DNA of 64,000 nt from Acidimicrobiia bacterium (GTDB lineage Bacteria; Actinomycetota; Acidimicrobiia; Spongiisociales; UBA11373). The notes below the pieces were generated by a model. It saw only the letters and a program-made list of their open reading frames with translations. It ran no database searches and was not told the origin of the DNA. This document shows positions 603-55,289 of this stretch, one piece after another. How positions within the stretch are numbered: the stretch's first letter is position 1; each line of letters opens with the position of its first letter. Position numbers and translations under genes: made by a program. The stretch is taken from positions 4,363 to 68,362 of the forward strand of contig JBBDWO010000020.1 in NCBI GenBank assembly GCA_040902765.1, in the 5' to 3' direction.

Positions 603-1935
603 CGGGTGGAACCGGGATGCCCGCTGAGAAGGCGACCCGACCGTCGGCCCTCACCGACCAGGCGGCGCTGAACGGATCGGCGGATCTGACCATGTAACCG
701 ATGGTGTCGCCACCGACGACCGGAATCTCGGTGACGGTGCCCGGCTCGAGGATCTCGTTGGTGTTGAACACTTCGTCACCGGTGAGCCGGCTCACCGTGA
801 CCACGACGGCACTGTCGCTCGTGTTGAGCAGCCACAGGGAAGCACTCTTGCCCGCCTCGGGACGCGTGCCGGGCAGCAGCCAGGTACCCGCCTGCTGCTC
901 GACGCCGCTGGTCACCGCGGTACCCAATGCTCCTGTGCTCACCACGCCGGCAGCCACCGGCGTCGGGGAGGACACCCGGGCGGCCACGACGTCGAAGTCG
1001 AGATCGACGGTCGACAGGTCGAGCCGGGCCGGTGCCTGGGCAGGGATGTCGAGGACCAGCTGGGTGCGCTGGGCACCCTCGGTGCCGAACAGTTCGACGT
1101 CGACGGCGATGTCCCCAAGGCTCGGGTTGGCCACCACGATTGCCGCCGAGTCATCTGCTGACAAGCGACTGATCGGCAACTCCCAGGCTGTTGCGAGACC
1201 CGTACCGGACCACCACGCCTGGTCGACACCCTGGGTGAACGCCATGGCCGGAACCGCCAACCCCGAATCGAGACGCACCGAAACGATGAGCGACTGCCGC
1301 TGGCGCAGTTGCTCGGCGAAGTCGAGATCCGTCCACGACCGCGAGCTGATCGTCACCTTCGACATGCTCCCGAGGACTTCAGTGCCGATCTCGGAGAAGG
1401 CCGACACGGTCACCGTGGCAGCTTCCGGGAAGGGGTTGAACAGCCTGAGCCGCAACGCCTCGCCGGTCATGGTCGATCCGCCCACGAAGAACCATTCGTC
1501 GCCTGCGTGCCCGACGCAGGCGTCGGCGGCGAGGACTTCGCCCGACACCACCACGGCGGCCCCCGACGGGCCGCCGGCGAACTCGACGAACCCGGGCGAA
1601 TCGCCTCGCTGGGCGACCTCTGAGAGGGTGATCACCGCACCGCCGGGGCCGTCGATGGCCGTCGAGACCCGGTCGGGCGGCTCCCCCGGGATGAGTACGG
1701 GGAGCGTGAGGTCGGCCACCGCCGGGGCCGCTGCCACCAGCGAGATCGCCGAGTCACGAGTGGTCGTCGCCTGCGCCCACGGGCAGTACCAGATCGTCGC
1801 ATCGGTTGGAGACGAGATCCCGAGACGCTCGATGACCACCCCCGACAGGGGTGGAGGAGGCACAGCAGGCGCCGGCATGAGGGCAGACGCAGCACCGAGG
1901 GCCGCCACCGACAACCCCAGGAGCAGGCGCCTCAT
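595..1935 (-). CDS. DUF5719 family secreted/anchored protein
   Basis: A 446-residue protein starting with a hydrophobic signal or anchor (MRRLLLGLSVAALGAASAL). The rest is a repetitive beta-rich exported region with a DEWFFVGGST motif and NPF/NPS-type segments characteristic of actinobacterial DUF5719 proteins. I chose the ATG at 1935 because it overlaps the TGA of the upstream glycosyltransferase by 4 bp (ATGA) and yields a signal sequence; longer readings upstream have no such support. DUF5719 genes sit beside membrane glycosyltransferases in other actinobacteria (recalled), which suggests a cell-envelope role. No catalytic residues are recognisable. Confidence 0.75.
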   Translation of the reverse strand: MRRLLLGLSVAALGAASALMPAPAVPPPPLSGVVIERLGISSPTDATIWYCPWAQATTTRDSAISLVAAAPAVADLTLPVLIPGEPPDRVSTAIDGPGGAVITLSEVAQRGDSPGFVEFAGGPSGAAVVVSGEVLAADACVGHAGDEWFFVGGSTMTGEALRLRLFNPFPEAATVTVSAFSEIGTEVLGSMSKVTISSRSWTDLDFAEQLRQRQSLIVSVRLDSGLAVPAMAFTQGVDQAWWSGTGLATAWELPISRLSADDSAAIVVANPSLGDIAVDVELFGTEGAQRTQLVLDIPAQAPARLDLSTVDLDFDVVAARVSSPTPVAAGVVSTGALGTAVTSGVEQQAGTWLLPGTRPEAGKSASLWLLNTSDSAVVVTVSRLTGDEVFNTNEILEPGTVTEIPVVGGDTIGYMVRSADPFSAAWSVRADGRVAFSAGIPVPPDE

Positions 1936-4733
1936 CGCTCGGCCCTCCTGCCGTTGGCGACGGCGACCAGCAGCGCGAGGAGCCACACACCGGCACCGAT
2001 GGCCATGAACCGGCGCGGGGCATACCCGCTGAAGCCGACCTCGGTGAGGCTTCCGCTGATCGAGTTGCGCCATCCGTCCTGGCTCCACGCCCCGGGACCC
2101 CAGCGGTGGTCGGCATTGCTGGCGACGATCACCTGACTCGCCGTCGGGGCTCCGTCGGGGCGCCGATACGAGGTGCCGTCGCCCACCCATGGCGTCCCGT
2201 CGGCGGCCAATGCCGGAGCGGCGGGGGCATCGTTGAGCAACACGATCGGTTGGGAGAGCGAGGTCAGGCGGACCATGTCGAACTGGGCCTCGAACAACTG
2301 CGTGAGCGGGTAACGCTCGGTGAACGCCACCCACCCGATGCCGAACTCGGCGAGCTCGGCGCCGGCGCGGCGGATCCGACCGTCGATGAGATCCTCGAGC
2401 AGGCGATGGAGCGCGTCGTCACCGAGACGCGGTTCGTTGAGATAGGCCTCGCCGCTCGTCGGATATGGCGGCGTGAACACCCGATAGGAAAGCCCCTCGA
2501 GCTCGCGCGTGGTGCCGGGCAGATCCTCGCCGAACATGAGAACCCGATCGGGGGTACCGGCGGACGGGACGGCGAACCCGAAGACCCCGGTGAGTGTGTC
2601 GCGGGGCAAGCCCGCCCGGCCCGGTCCCGTGACGAGGAACGTGGACAGCAGCAATCCGACGGCGGCGAGGCTCCCCACAACCGCGACGGCGCCGGGGGCA
2701 CCGGTGGGTCGGGTCCGGCGACGAACCATCTCGAAACACGCTCCGGCGGCGATGGCGATCCCGAGTCCCGCCAACAGAGTGCCGGCCACCTGCACTTCGC
2801 GTCCCGTCCCCAGCGAGCCGGTCCTGGCCGTGAGAACACCGAGTCCGGCGATCACCCCACCCCAGGCTGCCAGAGCGGCGACGGTGCGGTCCGATGACAG
2901 CAGGGCTCCGAGGATGGCCAACGCCGCCAGGACGACGACCACGAGGCCGGGCGTCCAGAAGGCGGCGGGTCCCTCGGTGAGGAGCGACCCGAAGTCCTCA
3001 TAGAGCACCCACGGGAGCAGCAGCGGGATGGCGAGGGCGGTGGCAAGCGCGAGTCGGATCAGCCCTCCGACTCGCTCTCCGACACCGGTGAGCGCCCAGA
3101 AGGCGCCGGCGATCAGAGGGATCACGAGCGCCAGTGGTACGAACGCCCCCGCCACCCCGACGGCGAGAGCGATGCCAGCCAGCCGCGACGCTCGAAGCAG
3201 TCGTCGCTCGGGCCATGGTCGCAGGGCGCCGCCCAGGGCCCAGGGAAGCGCCGCGGTGGCGGGGAGCGCCACCCAATGGCTGTCCCCGACCACAGCGCCG
3301 ATGGCCGGTCCGGCCATCAACACCAGGCCGGCGAAATACCCGGGGATCGGGGCCACGCCCCACACCCGCAGCATGCGAGCCATGCCGAACACACCTCCGA
3401 GGATCGAGCCCACCGTGATCACGGCGACGGCGAGGCCCCCCCGGCCGAGGAGCAGCATCTGGAGGACGGCGGTCGCAGCGACGTGGGGACGCACCACCTC
3501 CGGCGACCCGAGACCCGCAGGATTCCATCCACCGGCGTACGCCCCGAGCGTCGCAGTCGCCGAGGACGCGGGCGGCAGGGAGAAACCGACCACGGGGAGA
3601 TGGGCGGTCCAGACATCGCGGGTGGCGACCAGCGTCAGCATCACCACGAACATCCCGACGAAGAGTGCCGGGTGCCGGATGCTCTGCTGGCCGCTGACCA
3701 CAGCCTCCGAGAATCCCGACAGGACGCCATCGGGAAAGCGTCGGGCGATGCGTTCCAGCAGGTCCTCGTAGAGATTACGAAGGCGCACAGAGCCGCTGGT
3801 CTGGTACCGGAACAGCTCCTCGTCACCGGCCTCCCGGCCCCGTCTCGCCTGCCATCGGGACCGCAGCGCCGAGGGGAGCCGGACGATGTTCCAGCCCCAT
3901 GCGGCAAGCACGCCGGGGAGCGGAAATCGCCCGGTGAATGGGCGAAGGACCGACTCGACGAGACCGATCATGAGGGAGACCGGTAGCGCCCACGCCAGGG
4001 TGAGAGGACCGTAGGCCTTGATCATCGCCCTGATCTCGCCGGCCCGTTCCCGCCAGCGGGGCTCCGGATCGGGTCCCTGGTACTCGACCACCGACGAGGG
4101 CACTACCACGATGCGCCCGCCGCGCAGCCGAGCACGCTGGCAGAAGTCGATGGCGGCGGAGGTCGGCGCCATCTTGAGGTCGACGCCGCCCAAGCCTTTG
4201 AACAGATCCCGACGCACCAGCATCGACGTCCCGCCGGCGGCCGCCACGTCCCGGATGACGTCGTACTGCGCCTGGTCCACCTCGTCGGCCTCGAGACCGC
4301 TGTACGGGGCAGCGAACACGTCGGTGGCATACCCCACCGAGATGAGCCGCTGCGGATCCTCGGCGTCGACGACCTTGGAGCCGGCCACCGACGCATCCAC
4401 CCGCTCCCCATCGTGAATGAGCGCCGCCAGGGCCGCCGGTCGGGGACGCGAGCGCTCCCGGAGGAACCAGACGTAGGTGATGTCACGCTCGATCGAGTCG
4501 TACACGCCGCGCAGGTTGGGTCGCCAGGTCGCACCCGACTCGCTGGCGACCTTGCGGGCGGCATCGTCGCCACCGACGACGAAGACCCGTTTCGGCTGGA
4601 AGGTCTGTTCGCTGACGGCGGCGAGGCACGGCCCGAGGATCTCCGCATCGTCTGCGGTGACGACGGCGACGACGGTCGGCGCGGTGGGCTTCTCGGGCGG
4701 CCCTGAAGGGTCCGTGGACATGGGTTGGGTCAT
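1932..4733 (-). CDS. GT2-type glycosyltransferase with large multi-TM C-terminus
   Basis: About 933 residues. Residues 1-270 form a GT-A glycosyltransferase family 2 domain, with the nucleotide-binding strand TVVAVVTADD near the start and a GTSMLVRRDLF acceptor-side segment. The C-terminal two thirds holds about ten hydrophobic membrane segments with short loops and a larger extracytoplasmic region near the end. It probably transfers a sugar to an envelope polymer or lipid carrier at the membrane. The ATG at 4733 (MTQPMSTD) was chosen because it opens the domain directly and lies divergent from cofD; MSTDPS at 4721 is an alternative. It heads a three-gene operon with the DUF5719 and thioredoxin-like genes. 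Confidence 0.8.
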   Translation of the reverse strand: MTQPMSTDPSGPPEKPTAPTVVAVVTADDAEILGPCLAAVSEQTFQPKRVFVVGGDDAARKVASESGATWRPNLRGVYDSIERDITYVWFLRERSRPRPAALAALIHDGERVDASVAGSKVVDAEDPQRLISVGYATDVFAAPYSGLEADEVDQAQYDVIRDVAAAGGTSMLVRRDLFKGLGGVDLKMAPTSAAIDFCQRARLRGGRIVVVPSSVVEYQGPDPEPRWRERAGEIRAMIKAYGPLTLAWALPVSLMIGLVESVLRPFTGRFPLPGVLAAWGWNIVRLPSALRSRWQARRGREAGDEELFRYQTSGSVRLRNLYEDLLERIARRFPDGVLSGFSEAVVSGQQSIRHPALFVGMFVVMLTLVATRDVWTAHLPVVGFSLPPASSATATLGAYAGGWNPAGLGSPEVVRPHVAATAVLQMLLLGRGGLAVAVITVGSILGGVFGMARMLRVWGVAPIPGYFAGLVLMAGPAIGAVVGDSHWVALPATAALPWALGGALRPWPERRLLRASRLAGIALAVGVAGAFVPLALVIPLIAGAFWALTGVGERVGGLIRLALATALAIPLLLPWVLYEDFGSLLTEGPAAFWTPGLVVVVLAALAILGALLSSDRTVAALAAWGGVIAGLGVLTARTGSLGTGREVQVAGTLLAGLGIAIAAGACFEMVRRRTRPTGAPGAVAVVGSLAAVGLLLSTFLVTGPGRAGLPRDTLTGVFGFAVPSAGTPDRVLMFGEDLPGTTRELEGLSYRVFTPPYPTSGEAYLNEPRLGDDALHRLLEDLIDGRIRRAGAELAEFGIGWVAFTERYPLTQLFEAQFDMVRLTSLSQPIVLLNDAPAAPALAADGTPWVGDGTSYRRPDGAPTASQVIVASNADHRWGPGAWSQDGWRNSISGSLTEVGFSGYAPRRFMAIGAGVWLLALLVAVANGRRAER

Positions 4734-51525: not shown

Positions 51526-52203
51526 TCATCCCGTGCTGAGTCGTGCAGCCGTCGTGAGGACCCGAGGGTCGGGATAGTCCTCGCAGTATTGGTAGGCGTA
51601 CGACAGCCGGATGATCCCGTCCGACCCGACAACGACTTCTGCGGCGGCCAACCAGGGGTCGTCGACCGGTGGCCGGCCCTGCTCGCGCCGCCCGTCTTGG
51701 AACTCGACCCCAAGCTGGCGTGGGTGACTCCAGTATTCGACGGGAGCATCGAAGAGGACCTGCTCGACAGACCATTGGCCGATGCCGTAGGCCCGGTAGG
51801 CGGACTGATCTGGATCGCACAAGATCAGAGTCGCGATGTTGTGCGTCGTGCGGTAGGCGGCTGCCCGCTCGGGTTCTCCCTGGGAAACGATGATCGGCGT
51901 CAGCCCGGCCGCCGAATACGCGTCGTACTCGGTGGCAAGCCGCCCGGCACGTTCGACACCGCAGGTGCATCCGAAGTGGCGCCAGAACATCAGCAGCGCG
52001 GGTCCTGTCGACCAGTGATCGCTCAGCCTGACGGGCTCGCCTGTGTGATCGGGGAGCACAAGATCGGGAGCGGCCGTACCCGGGGCCACCAGGGTGCCAA
52101 GGCCCTCGGTGGGGCCGACCGTCCACTTCTCGAGCCACTCGGCCTCGGCAGCGGCTGTCAGATCATCCAACGATCCCATCGTCCCCCTCGGTTGGTTACT
52201 CAT
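51526..52203 (-). CDS. AhpC/TSA-like peroxiredoxin-family protein
   Basis: A 225-residue thioredoxin-fold protein of the AhpC-TSA_2 type. After a helical lead (1-35), GTAAPDLVLPDHTGEPVRLSD is the family opening; the redox site is FWRHFGCTCGVE, a CxC in place of the TxxC of classical peroxiredoxins; LILCDPDQSAYRAYGI is also typical. It may reduce peroxides or act as a thiol oxidoreductase. It is divergent from the YheO-AAA+ gene with only 44 bp between starts, so the two are likely regulated together. Confidence 0.75.
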   Translation of the reverse strand: MSNQPRGTMGSLDDLTAAAEAEWLEKWTVGPTEGLGTLVAPGTAAPDLVLPDHTGEPVRLSDHWSTGPALLMFWRHFGCTCGVERAGRLATEYDAYSAAGLTPIIVSQGEPERAAAYRTTHNIATLILCDPDQSAYRAYGIGQWSVEQVLFDAPVEYWSHPRQLGVEFQDGRREQGRPPVDDPWLAAAEVVVGSDGIIRLSYAYQYCEDYPDPRVLTTAARLSTG

Positions 52204-52247
52204 GGCACGCTAACGCACACCTCCTAGGGAGGGCGAAGCGTGCTTGT

Positions 52248-53924
52248 ATGCGGTGCGTGAGGAGACACCGACAAGACTCCGCGCCGGTAGCCGAGAGCAA
52301 ACGCCTCGAGGAGTACGACTTCTACCCGTTTGTCGTAGATGACGACGGCCTTATCGAGTTCAGCGACGAACGCTTCGTGACAGCGGTGCATCACTTCCTG
52401 GGGGCCCGGAATGCTGTTGCGGCCCGAGAGTTGATCGTGATCGGCGAGCAGAACCTGGTCCGCGACACCTTCCCAAGCGACGACGTGAAGGCCTATGCGG
52501 ATCTGTTCCGGGCTTACGACGGCGACTCAGTGATCCACGACAACGCGACCTACCTCGAAAACTACAAGAGGATCGTCCATCTGATCGGACAGTCCTTTCC
52601 CAACACCGGGATCGAGATCCTCGTCCACGATCTCGTCAATCCGTCGAAGGCCATCGTCGCCATCGAACACGGCGAGGTGACCGGACGGACGCTCGGACAT
52701 GGAGCCACCAAGCTCGTCCTCGACCTCAAGACGCGCCGCTATCACAATCGGGACAAACTGAATTACGAGCTGAACATCGGAGCGAGGCGCTTCAAGTGCA
52801 CCACGATTCCGATCTTCCGACCCGAGTACGGCCTGGTTGGCGCCATCTGCATCAACGTCGACGTGCGGTTCCTGCGCGAGGAGGTTCTTGCAGACGGCCA
52901 GCGCGTCCAGGCGTTCTTCGACAACCTGCTCCGAACGGAGTTCGAGTTGGACGAGAACATCCTCTCCAAGGCCGAGTATCGGGCAGCACTTCAGGGCAAG
53001 CGCCACTTCTTGGATGAAGCCATCCGGACGGACAGTCGTTCCGACGCGGCGCGGGCCCAGTCAGAAACGCTGCGTCTGATAGCCGGCCTGGACTCGATCG
53101 CGCTATCGAGGTTCAAAGTGGCCGGCGGGTACACCCGATTCGACCCGGTGACAAGGGAGCGGCTGCTCGATGCCCGCCTAGCGATCCGGAGTGGCCTCAT
53201 GAGCCCCACCGGTAATCGCGAGAACCACCTGGTGTGGGGTAGACCCGGGACCGGCAAGACCTTCCTTATCCACGAGATAGTGAGCGAATTCGACGGCGTG
53301 AGTTACGTCGAACTCAATCTTGCCCAAGACTCCGAAGAGGATGTCCGCGCCGAATGCAGGGCCGCCGTCGAGTCCCCGACGCCCTCCCTGGTACTCATTG
53401 ATGAAATCGACGCCAGGCCGGATGCGTCGTGGCCCTACGAGACGCTGCTTCCGTTCCTCGACGCCAATGTGGAAACCGGTAGCCAGGTCGTGTTCGTGTT
53501 GGCTGGCAGTTCGGGCGAAACCTTGGAGGAACTCGTCCGGGCCATCGATAGGCGCCCCAAGGGCAAGGATCTCATGAGTCGCACTCCCGAGGGCAATCGT
53601 TTCGCCGTCGACCCGCTGGGGGTCGGTGACCAGATTTCCGTAGCGATCTCACAGTTCCTTCGGGAGGGCAAGAGCCGAGGCCTCTCCATTGAACTTGTCG
53701 AGAAGGCAGCCCTCTATTACCTGGCTTCGACTCCTTATCTGACGAACGCTCGTCAACTGGCGGAGTTCGCCGCACGAGCGGTTCGAAGGGTGCCTGAGGG
53801 TGAGGGACGTCTCAAATACGACCACCTCTTCGGTGCCGGAGACCCCGAGAACAAGGAGTTCTGGATCGGGATGAATCGAGATGCGGCAGATCTCGTGGGG
53901 CGGTACGTCGAAGTCTCGTGGTAA
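52248..53924 (+). CDS. YheO-like PAS domain fused to an AAA+ ATPase
   Basis: A 558-residue protein. Residues about 105-208 match the YheO/DauR-type PAS fold: GIEILVHDL, AIVAIEHGEVTGRTLG and GLVGAICINVDV, a motif set normally followed by a helix-turn-helix in transcription regulators. Here a helical spacer (210-325) leads instead to an AAA+ module: Walker A GRPGTGKT (331-338), Walker B LVLIDEIDA (381-389), a sensor-1-like VFVLAGSSGE and a C-terminal helical lid (TNARQLAEFAARA). No DNA-binding or nuclease domain is visible. A ligand-controlled remodelling ATPase is the simplest reading. Codon use looks less GC-skewed than in neighbours, consistent with transfer. The start could also be the in-frame GTG 9 bases later. 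Confidence 0.75.
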   Translation: MRCVRRHRQDSAPVAESKRLEEYDFYPFVVDDDGLIEFSDERFVTAVHHFLGARNAVAARELIVIGEQNLVRDTFPSDDVKAYADLFRAYDGDSVIHDNATYLENYKRIVHLIGQSFPNTGIEILVHDLVNPSKAIVAIEHGEVTGRTLGHGATKLVLDLKTRRYHNRDKLNYELNIGARRFKCTTIPIFRPEYGLVGAICINVDVRFLREEVLADGQRVQAFFDNLLRTEFELDENILSKAEYRAALQGKRHFLDEAIRTDSRSDAARAQSETLRLIAGLDSIALSRFKVAGGYTRFDPVTRERLLDARLAIRSGLMSPTGNRENHLVWGRPGTGKTFLIHEIVSEFDGVSYVELNLAQDSEEDVRAECRAAVESPTPSLVLIDEIDARPDASWPYETLLPFLDANVETGSQVVFVLAGSSGETLEELVRAIDRRPKGKDLMSRTPEGNRFAVDPLGVGDQISVAISQFLREGKSRGLSIELVEKAALYYLASTPYLTNARQLAEFAARAVRRVPEGEGRLKYDHLFGAGDPENKEFWIGMNRDAADLVGRYVEVSW

Positions 53925-54072: not shown

Positions 54073-54648
54073 ATGCCAGTGGACGCCGTCTCGACATTCC
54101 TCGCCACCGGAGCCCTGCTCATCGCCGTGCTCCTGGTCGCCCTCATCGTTCTCGGCCTGGTCGCCCGGTTCAGTGGTCGGGCAGCCGACACCCTGGCGTC
54201 ACTACAGGAGTCGTTCGACGGTCTCGGCCCGATGATCGCCCTGACGATGGCCGCAGTGGCCACCGCCGGCAGTCTCTACTACTCACAGGTTGCGGGGTTC
54301 ATCCCCTGTGAGTACTGCTGGTACCAGCGGATCGCCATGTACCCCCTGGTGCCGGTGCTGTTCGCCGGGGTGCGCGCCGGGGACCGCTCGGTGCGCCGGT
54401 ATGTGATCCCCCTGGCCGTGATCGGGAGCATCATCGCCGCCTATCACACCCTCATCGAGAACTTCCCCGAGATCGCCACCGCCGAATGCAGCGGGGTCGT
54501 CGCCTGCACGGCACCGTACGTTCAGAAGTTCGGCTTCCTCGGGATCCCGTTCATGGCGCTGATGTCGTTCGGCGTCATCATCGCCGCACTGTTGCTCGAC
54601 CGCTCGGGACCGAGCCCGACACCGCCCACCAGCCAGGAGAACCTATGA
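54073..54648 (+). CDS. dsbB: DsbB-family disulfide bond formation protein
   Basis: A 191-residue membrane protein with about five hydrophobic segments. The first redox pair is CEYCWYQR after TM2, the DsbB signature; the second loop has Cys-Ser-Gly-Val-Val-Ala-Cys (ECSGVVACTAPY). DsbB passes electrons from a DsbA-like oxidant to quinones. Compared with E. coli DsbB it carries an extra N-terminal helix (about 10-30). It overlaps the following thioredoxin-fold gene by 4 bp (ATGA), which is therefore its likely partner. Confidence 0.9.
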   Translation: MPVDAVSTFLATGALLIAVLLVALIVLGLVARFSGRAADTLASLQESFDGLGPMIALTMAAVATAGSLYYSQVAGFIPCEYCWYQRIAMYPLVPVLFAGVRAGDRSVRRYVIPLAVIGSIIAAYHTLIENFPEIATAECSGVVACTAPYVQKFGFLGIPFMALMSFGVIIAALLLDRSGPSPTPPTSQENL

Positions 54649-55289
54649 CTGCCCGTACCCGTCAGAGTCAGACGCCGCGCCCCGGTGCGAAGAAGAAGTT
54701 CCCGATCATTCCGGTGGCGATAGGTGTCGCGGTGGTGGCGCTGATCGCCACGGTAATCCTGACCTTCGAGGGTGACACCACCGAGGACGCCTTCGGCACC
54801 CCTGAGATCAGCGGAGCCGGGCTCACCACGTACGCTGCCGGGGGTCTCGACCCGGCGGTCGGACAGGCCGCGCCCACCGTCGTCGGTGCCGACTTCGAGG
54901 GCAGCCGGGTGGAGATCGCCGACGACGGCCGGGCCAAGATCATCCTCTTCCTGGCCCACTGGTGCCCGCATTGCCAGGCCGAGGTCCCGATCGTGCAGAG
55001 CTGGGTGGACGCCGGCTCGCTCCCGGTCGACGTGGACCTCTACGCGGTGGCCACCAGCATCGATCGGATGCGACCCAACTATCCACCGTCGAAGTGGCTC
55101 GAGGACGAGGGCTGGACCGAGCCCATCCTCGTCGACGACGAGCTGACCAGCGTGTCGCGCGCCTACGGCCTCAACGCCTTCCCGTACTGGGTGTTCGTAG
55201 CCGCCGACGGCACGGTTCGGGCTCGACTCTCCGGTCGACTCGGTGTCGCCGAACTCGATCAGCTCACCGGGTCACTGCGCCAGGGCTAG
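54645..55289 (+). CDS. Membrane-anchored thioredoxin-fold oxidoreductase (DsbA/TlpA-like)
   Basis: A 214-residue protein with a basic cytoplasmic tail, one membrane helix (about 20-41) and an extracytoplasmic thioredoxin domain. The active site is FLAHWCPHCQAEVP (CPHC, the DsbA-type dipeptide) and the cis-proline is in NAFPYWVF. CPHC and coupling to dsbB point to thiol oxidation of exported proteins rather than cytochrome maturation. Followed by a long bidirectional hairpin. Confidence 0.88.
   Translation: MTARTRQSQTPRPGAKKKFPIIPVAIGVAVVALIATVILTFEGDTTEDAFGTPEISGAGLTTYAAGGLDPAVGQAAPTVVGADFEGSRVEIADDGRAKIILFLAHWCPHCQAEVPIVQSWVDAGSLPVDVDLYAVATSIDRMRPNYPPSKWLEDEGWTEPILVDDELTSVSRAYGLNAFPYWVFVAADGTVRARLSGRLGVAELDQLTGSLRQG

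Follow-up and report, generated by a model that had tools for sequence, protein, structure and literature searches.

The window, a 64,000-nucleotide stretch of an Acidimicrobiia genome, carries at 52248-53924 on the forward strand a 558-aa gene that joins a YheO-type PAS domain to an AAA+ ATPase module. Its true start may be the GTG at 52257, as in the orthologues. On the reverse strand, 51526-52203 encodes a 225-aa AhpC/TSA, SelL-related redox protein (AhpC/TSA, E = 1.2e-14) with a CTC motif (FGCTCG, that is, CxC). The two genes diverge from a 44-bp gap (52204-52247), just as the first-pass annotation of this DNA had placed them, and no sigma-70-like promoter match was found in those 44 bp. 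Directly downstream of the fusion gene, DsbB-like and ResA/TlpA-like thiol-disulfide genes occupy 54073-55289. Distant relatives of the peroxiredoxin at L108, L110, L111, L112, L114, L115, L116, and L118 carry a TGA codon in place of the first cysteine (FGUxTC) and are probable UxxC selenoproteins.

Both domains of the fusion protein scored above their Pfam cut-offs, with PAS_6 (PF08348) matched at residues 103-208 (52554-52871; E = 3.5e-20, 72.4 bits against a cut-off of 27) and AAA (PF00004) at residues 328-435 (E = 8.5e-12, 46.1 bits against a cut-off of 21.2). The annotation had made its proposal of a PAS-AAA+ fusion depend on the N-terminal region matching PAS_6/YheO profiles, which it clearly does, and had described the DNA-binding part as missing; consistent with this description, neither a helix-turn-helix nor any other DNA-binding family was detected in the protein at E ≤ 1 in Pfam. 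A Guanylate_cyc domain was likewise absent from it. The PAS_6 domain is preceded by a conserved N-terminal region (residues 20-102, 52305-52553) in which an LEEYDFYPF motif leads into a helical bundle (AF2 helices at residues 40-115); an alignment of 25 sequences from several phyla (A3) indicated that this region is common to the cyclase-linked and stand-alone relatives described below. Following PAS_6, the C-terminal part of the sensor module (residues 209-269, 52872-53054) carries the motif LDENILSKxEYxxALxGKRH and marks the point where stand-alone forms stop and cyclase forms continue. The best 19-residue hydropathy value of the protein was -1.32, indicating a soluble protein with no N-terminal membrane helix.

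The AAA+ module, including its lid and a conserved C-terminal tail (RLKYDHLF..GDPENKEFW), spans residues 277-557 (53076-53918), as judged by Pfam, by an alignment of eight members over ~283 aa (A4), and by AF2 with Foldseek. Walker A (GRPGTGKT, residues 331-338, 53238-53261) and Walker B (LVLIDEID, residues 381-388, 53388-53411) are invariant in A4, as are an SR dipeptide and the ARQL of the lid; the tail is conserved among the eight members as R.KYD..F..GDP.NK.FW. The arginine of SR lies within RPKGKDLMSRTPEGN (residues 436-450, 53553-53597) and could serve as the arginine finger, while ARQL lies within NARQLAEFAARAV (residues 500-512, 53745-53783), whose arginine (NARQL) we infer to be a sensor-2-like residue. 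The earlier description of a complete AAA+ module with Walker A, Walker B, and lid thus held. Structure prediction, which the annotation had suggested as a check, agreed with both assignments: the AF2 model of the AAA half (pLDDT 77) matched generic AAA+ proteins in Foldseek (NtrC1, ORC, p97, FtsH, and RuvB, E down to 4.8e-9), and the PAS half matched PAS/LOV domains (E = 2.5e-4 to 1e-3), the models being of moderate confidence (pLDDT 77-78) and the two halves having been folded separately.

A search for homologues with the same PAS-AAA+ order recovered two loci, L001 (82% identical) and L002 (76% identical), and since they share this order, the window gene is not a chance open reading frame. 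Both halves are under purifying selection, with dN/dS values of 0.07-0.12 among the three PAS-AAA genomes, at high dS. The gene had also been described as less GC-biased than its neighbors. This was true of total GC, which at 0.608 is the lowest among the 42 window genes (0.685 ± 0.015 for the others), but GC3 was only 1.5 SD low (0.763 compared to 0.833 ± 0.046) in this comparison with genes of the window. The orthologues likewise have a lower GC than their own loci (0.613 versus 0.683 and 0.581 versus 0.623). Because the GC3 deficit is modest and the orthologues show the same offset, the low GC stems mainly from protein composition, and recent transfer was rejected as its cause.

Scanning bacterial genomes with the window protein identified 46 loci, in which residues ~18-260 (~245 aa) behave as a single module that occurs in three settings. 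In Verrucomicrobiota, Bacteroidota, and Pseudomonadota, the module is a stand-alone protein of ~280 aa (51-58% identity), while in Acidimicrobiia and one Acidobacteriota MAG it lies upstream of a class III nucleotide cyclase (59-70% identity); its position before an AAA+ module is limited to the window, L001, and L002. The two cyclase forms scanned (L003 and L006) matched Guanylate_cyc at 1.2e-13 and 6.4e-10, and the cyclase motifs FSDIV and DVxGDGVNxxSR were kept in all 11 forms inspected, with KxxGDG kept in 10 of them. Every cyclase and stand-alone form tested has an N-terminal membrane helix (19-residue hydropathy of 1.97-2.89), whereas the three AAA forms have none. The sensor module was found in 16 of 395 Acidimicrobiia genomes, with the AAA form present only in the window's genome (G000) and G004; the remaining carriers have frames of cyclase-form length. 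It is also unusually conserved, with ~59 invariant columns and a mean identity of 64% in A3. Judged by sequence, the closest kin of the sensor half are therefore the membrane-anchored cyclase-linked or stand-alone forms rather than YheO-HTH regulators. This modifies the earlier proposal that the AAA+ module takes the place of a helix-turn-helix, given that the nearest sensor relatives carry either a class III cyclase or nothing in that position and are membrane-anchored.

The comparison with known proteins runs along the same lines. YheO-type one-component regulators combine PF08348 with a helix-turn-helix, an example being Campylobacter Cj1387c (PMC4519771). The window protein shares with them a PAS_6 domain that clearly exceeds the Pfam cut-off, but lacks the helix-turn-helix, has an additional N-terminal helical region of ~80 aa, and has a sensor module nearer to those of the cyclase-linked and stand-alone forms. 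With the membrane-anchored PAS_6-class III cyclases (L003, L005-L008, and L050-L057; Acidimicrobiia and Acidobacteriota) it shares the whole sensor module from LEEYxFYPF to GKRH, the 59-70% identity extending over the segment that joins sensor to output, while differing in having an AAA+ output instead of a cyclase and in lacking the membrane helix. No papers on PAS_6 with either AAA+ or a cyclase were found in the openly licensed PMC literature.

In Verrucomicrobiota, the stand-alone module repeatedly lies beside genes for tetrahydrobiopterin synthesis and Phe/Tyr degradation (L011-L037), its neighbors including folE, 6-pyruvoyl-tetrahydropterin synthase, an SDR, aromatic amino acid hydroxylase, HPPD, and homogentisate dioxygenase (HmgA). 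This association, in one lineage, hints that the PAS_6 ligand is a pterin or an aromatic amino acid. A plasmid search returned matches to the sensor half at 25-33% identity, mostly on conjugative plasmids (14 of the 17 matches were typed as conjugative), and no AAA fusion. Among these matches, L120 (3899-4750) and L121 (3836-4684) are distant PAS_6 proteins (31-33%) with a hydrophobic N-terminus on beta- and gammaproteobacterial conjugative plasmids.

A tree of 41 rows places the three AAA forms in a single clade (support 100/98) inside a 13-row set that includes all cyclase forms (100/100) and is separate from all stand-alone forms. A single swap would explain this distribution. The direction from cyclase to AAA appears likely but is not proven because the nesting of the AAA forms beside the L003 cyclase is weak (86/70). 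Within one bacterial family, the distribution is a clean natural case of the same sensor module joined either to a second-messenger enzyme or to an AAA+ motor, with the membrane anchor present in the cyclase forms and missing from the AAA forms.

We consider it reasonably probable that the window gene encodes a soluble one-component signaling protein that arose by this exchange of output, in which a ligand of PAS_6 alters an AAA+ ring that remodels a protein partner. In such a mechanism, the PAS_6 domain would bind a small ligand, and binding would change the arrangement or assembly of the AAA+ subunits, or their ATPase activity; the subunits would form an ATP-dependent ring acting on the partner. 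Since the sensor module precedes a cyclase elsewhere and an AAA+ module here, a direct output, mechanical or switch-like, would have taken the place of a second messenger. The earlier idea of a ligand-gated ATPase survives in this form, with both PAS_6 and AAA+ present and the gating itself presumed. PAS_6 may instead be a constitutive dimerization or docking platform that addresses the AAA+ module to its partner rather than a ligand sensor, which we regard as unlikely. The module does occur alone without an output, so it can act via partners, and this PAS_6 subfamily has no known ligand; however, the ~59 columns that are invariant over several phyla include many in PAS_6 core motifs, which would point to a conserved pocket rather than a mere interface. 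The cyclase forms offer an easy cAMP/cGMP read-out for finding the ligand of this subfamily, and the conserved GKRH join marks where outputs could be cut and swapped.

A PAS-controlled transcription regulator would fit the use of PAS_6 as a regulator domain elsewhere; its AAA+ module would engage either RNA polymerase, in the manner of a sigma-54 activator, or DNA, as DnaA/Hda and ORC do. NtrC1 and ORC are indeed among the best Foldseek matches of the AAA half, and an Hda profile matched weakly (4.7e-5), but these profile scores are far under the curated cut-offs, the TM-scores are near 0.5 and thus generic for AAA+, and no DNA-binding domain was found at the E-value limit given above, such that this role seems highly unlikely. 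A string search of the window protein revealed no GAFTGA loop, and a sigma-54 activator identity was rejected. NtrC-like signaling AAA+ proteins are joined to PAS/GAF sensors (PMC1592074), and the window protein shares with them the combination of a small-molecule sensor domain and an AAA+ output; its AAA+ module, however, is from another, small family and has neither the GAFTGA loop nor a DNA-binding domain. The annotation had suggested a possible stress or defense module in which the ATPase works with the divergent peroxiredoxin, and the 44-bp spacing and the thiol-disulfide genes downstream would suit such a pairing. The peroxiredoxin has no counterpart at either of the other two loci (L001 and L002), though; upstream of the L001 gene lies a dienelactone hydrolase gene on the same strand, and the G004 homologue (88% identical) is on another contig, has an in-frame TAG, and has lost its 5' end while the PAS-AAA gene is intact. 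This last case comes from one MAG and could be an assembly error, yet it agrees with the absent adjacency. Peroxiredoxin homologues also occur in genomes lacking PAS-AAA, tabulating neighbors revealed none common to the AAA loci, and no PADLOC family fit the fusion protein, which gave matches at the P-loop level alone (E = 0.01-0.07). The stress/defense proposal is thus largely refuted and extremely improbable, and we judge the peroxiredoxin to lie outside any module with the PAS-AAA gene. The fusion is genuine and preserved across three genomes, yet it does not belong to a redox or defense pair.

The AAA+ module recurs outside this fusion, in what is evidently, on sequence grounds, a small Actinomycetota family that swaps heads: PAS_6, TPR repeats (L009/L081, 770 aa), or a MerB-like domain. 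The family is rare, being found in 4 of 395 Acidimicrobiia genomes and in two more genomes of a 246-genome phylum sample, and no relatives of the module were found on viral contigs. Among the 14 genomes of the window's own family, G000 and G004 carry PAS-AAA, G004 also TPR-AAA, G003 MerB-AAA, and G013 the PAS-cyclase. The TPR-AAA and MerB-like-AAA proteins (the latter at L079, L080, L082, and L083) share the AAA+ module and its tail with the window protein (48-52% identity), and differ from it at the N-terminus, where the former have TPR repeats and the latter a MerB-like lyase containing two TGA codons. No neighbors are common across the AAA+ loci compared.

In these MerB-like relatives, four AAA frames of 357-358 aa have a MerB-like region in frame upstream (PF03243, E = 8.5e-18 and 5.5e-19 in the two scanned). 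The genes lie at 1495-3051 on the reverse strand of L079, in a region in frame up to 2349 in L080, from 80 to ~1936 on the reverse strand of L082, and at 748-2352 on the forward strand of L083. Each contains two in-frame TGA codons at identical places in the MerB-like region in all four genomes, and both codons align with cysteines of MerB2 (5c17) that are known as the catalytic pair of MerB. A CUCUUCC-GGUC-GGAAGAG hairpin lies 3' of the second TGA, lacking one end pair in L082; its z-scores are weak when considered alone (-0.4 to -2.5 after the second TGA, about 0 after the first). All four MerB-AAA genomes (G003, G254, G455, and G464) have selB above the cut-off and strong tRNA-Sec matches. 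In the PAS-AAA genomes G000 and G004, selB was not found above the cut-off; tRNA-Sec matches there scored 46-47 bits, in one case just above the 47-bit threshold, values that resemble the background given by other long tRNAs.

The MerB-like-AAA protein is apparently a two-Sec organomercurial-lyase-like ATPase. This observation, incidental to the PAS-AAA+ fusion, may be more novel than the fusion itself. The openly licensed PMC literature searched yielded no two-Sec MerB-like protein with a fused AAA+ module, and the organomercurial-lyase-like selenoprotein suggested by these other AAA+ heads is apparently unreported. The known MerB-like organometallic lyase SaoL (NF040728) is listed with one Sec, in a CU motif (PMC13188914). 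The MerB-AAA head also has a MerB fold and a predicted Sec, but these proteins reach only 35-39 bits against the 140-bit SaoL cut-off, have two TGA codons, and are fused to AAA+. More speculatively, AAA+ could be the core of an undescribed stress-response family of Actinomycetota whose heads are interchangeable: a two-Sec MerB-like lyase in genomes that decode Sec, TPR repeats, or a cyclase-derived PAS_6 where Sec machinery is absent. The window gene would then be the ligand-gated form, lacking Sec, of an ATP-driven machine for organometal or thiol stress; we consider this reading improbable.

In G003, a merA gene (L129, 1441-3276 on the reverse strand; TIGR02053, 541 bits, above the cut-off) lies ~3 kb from the MerB-AAA gene, which supports a mercury link. 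The C-terminal piece of a second AAA+ copy, likely a decayed duplicate, is located ~2.6 kb after the same MerB-AAA gene (L129, 10166-10282). The MerB-AAA gene of G464 has a phage capsid gene, identified by Pfam, on one side and an integrase-like gene, recognized by eye, on the other (L130, 3372-4502 and 8273-9280), which suggests surroundings resembling a prophage.
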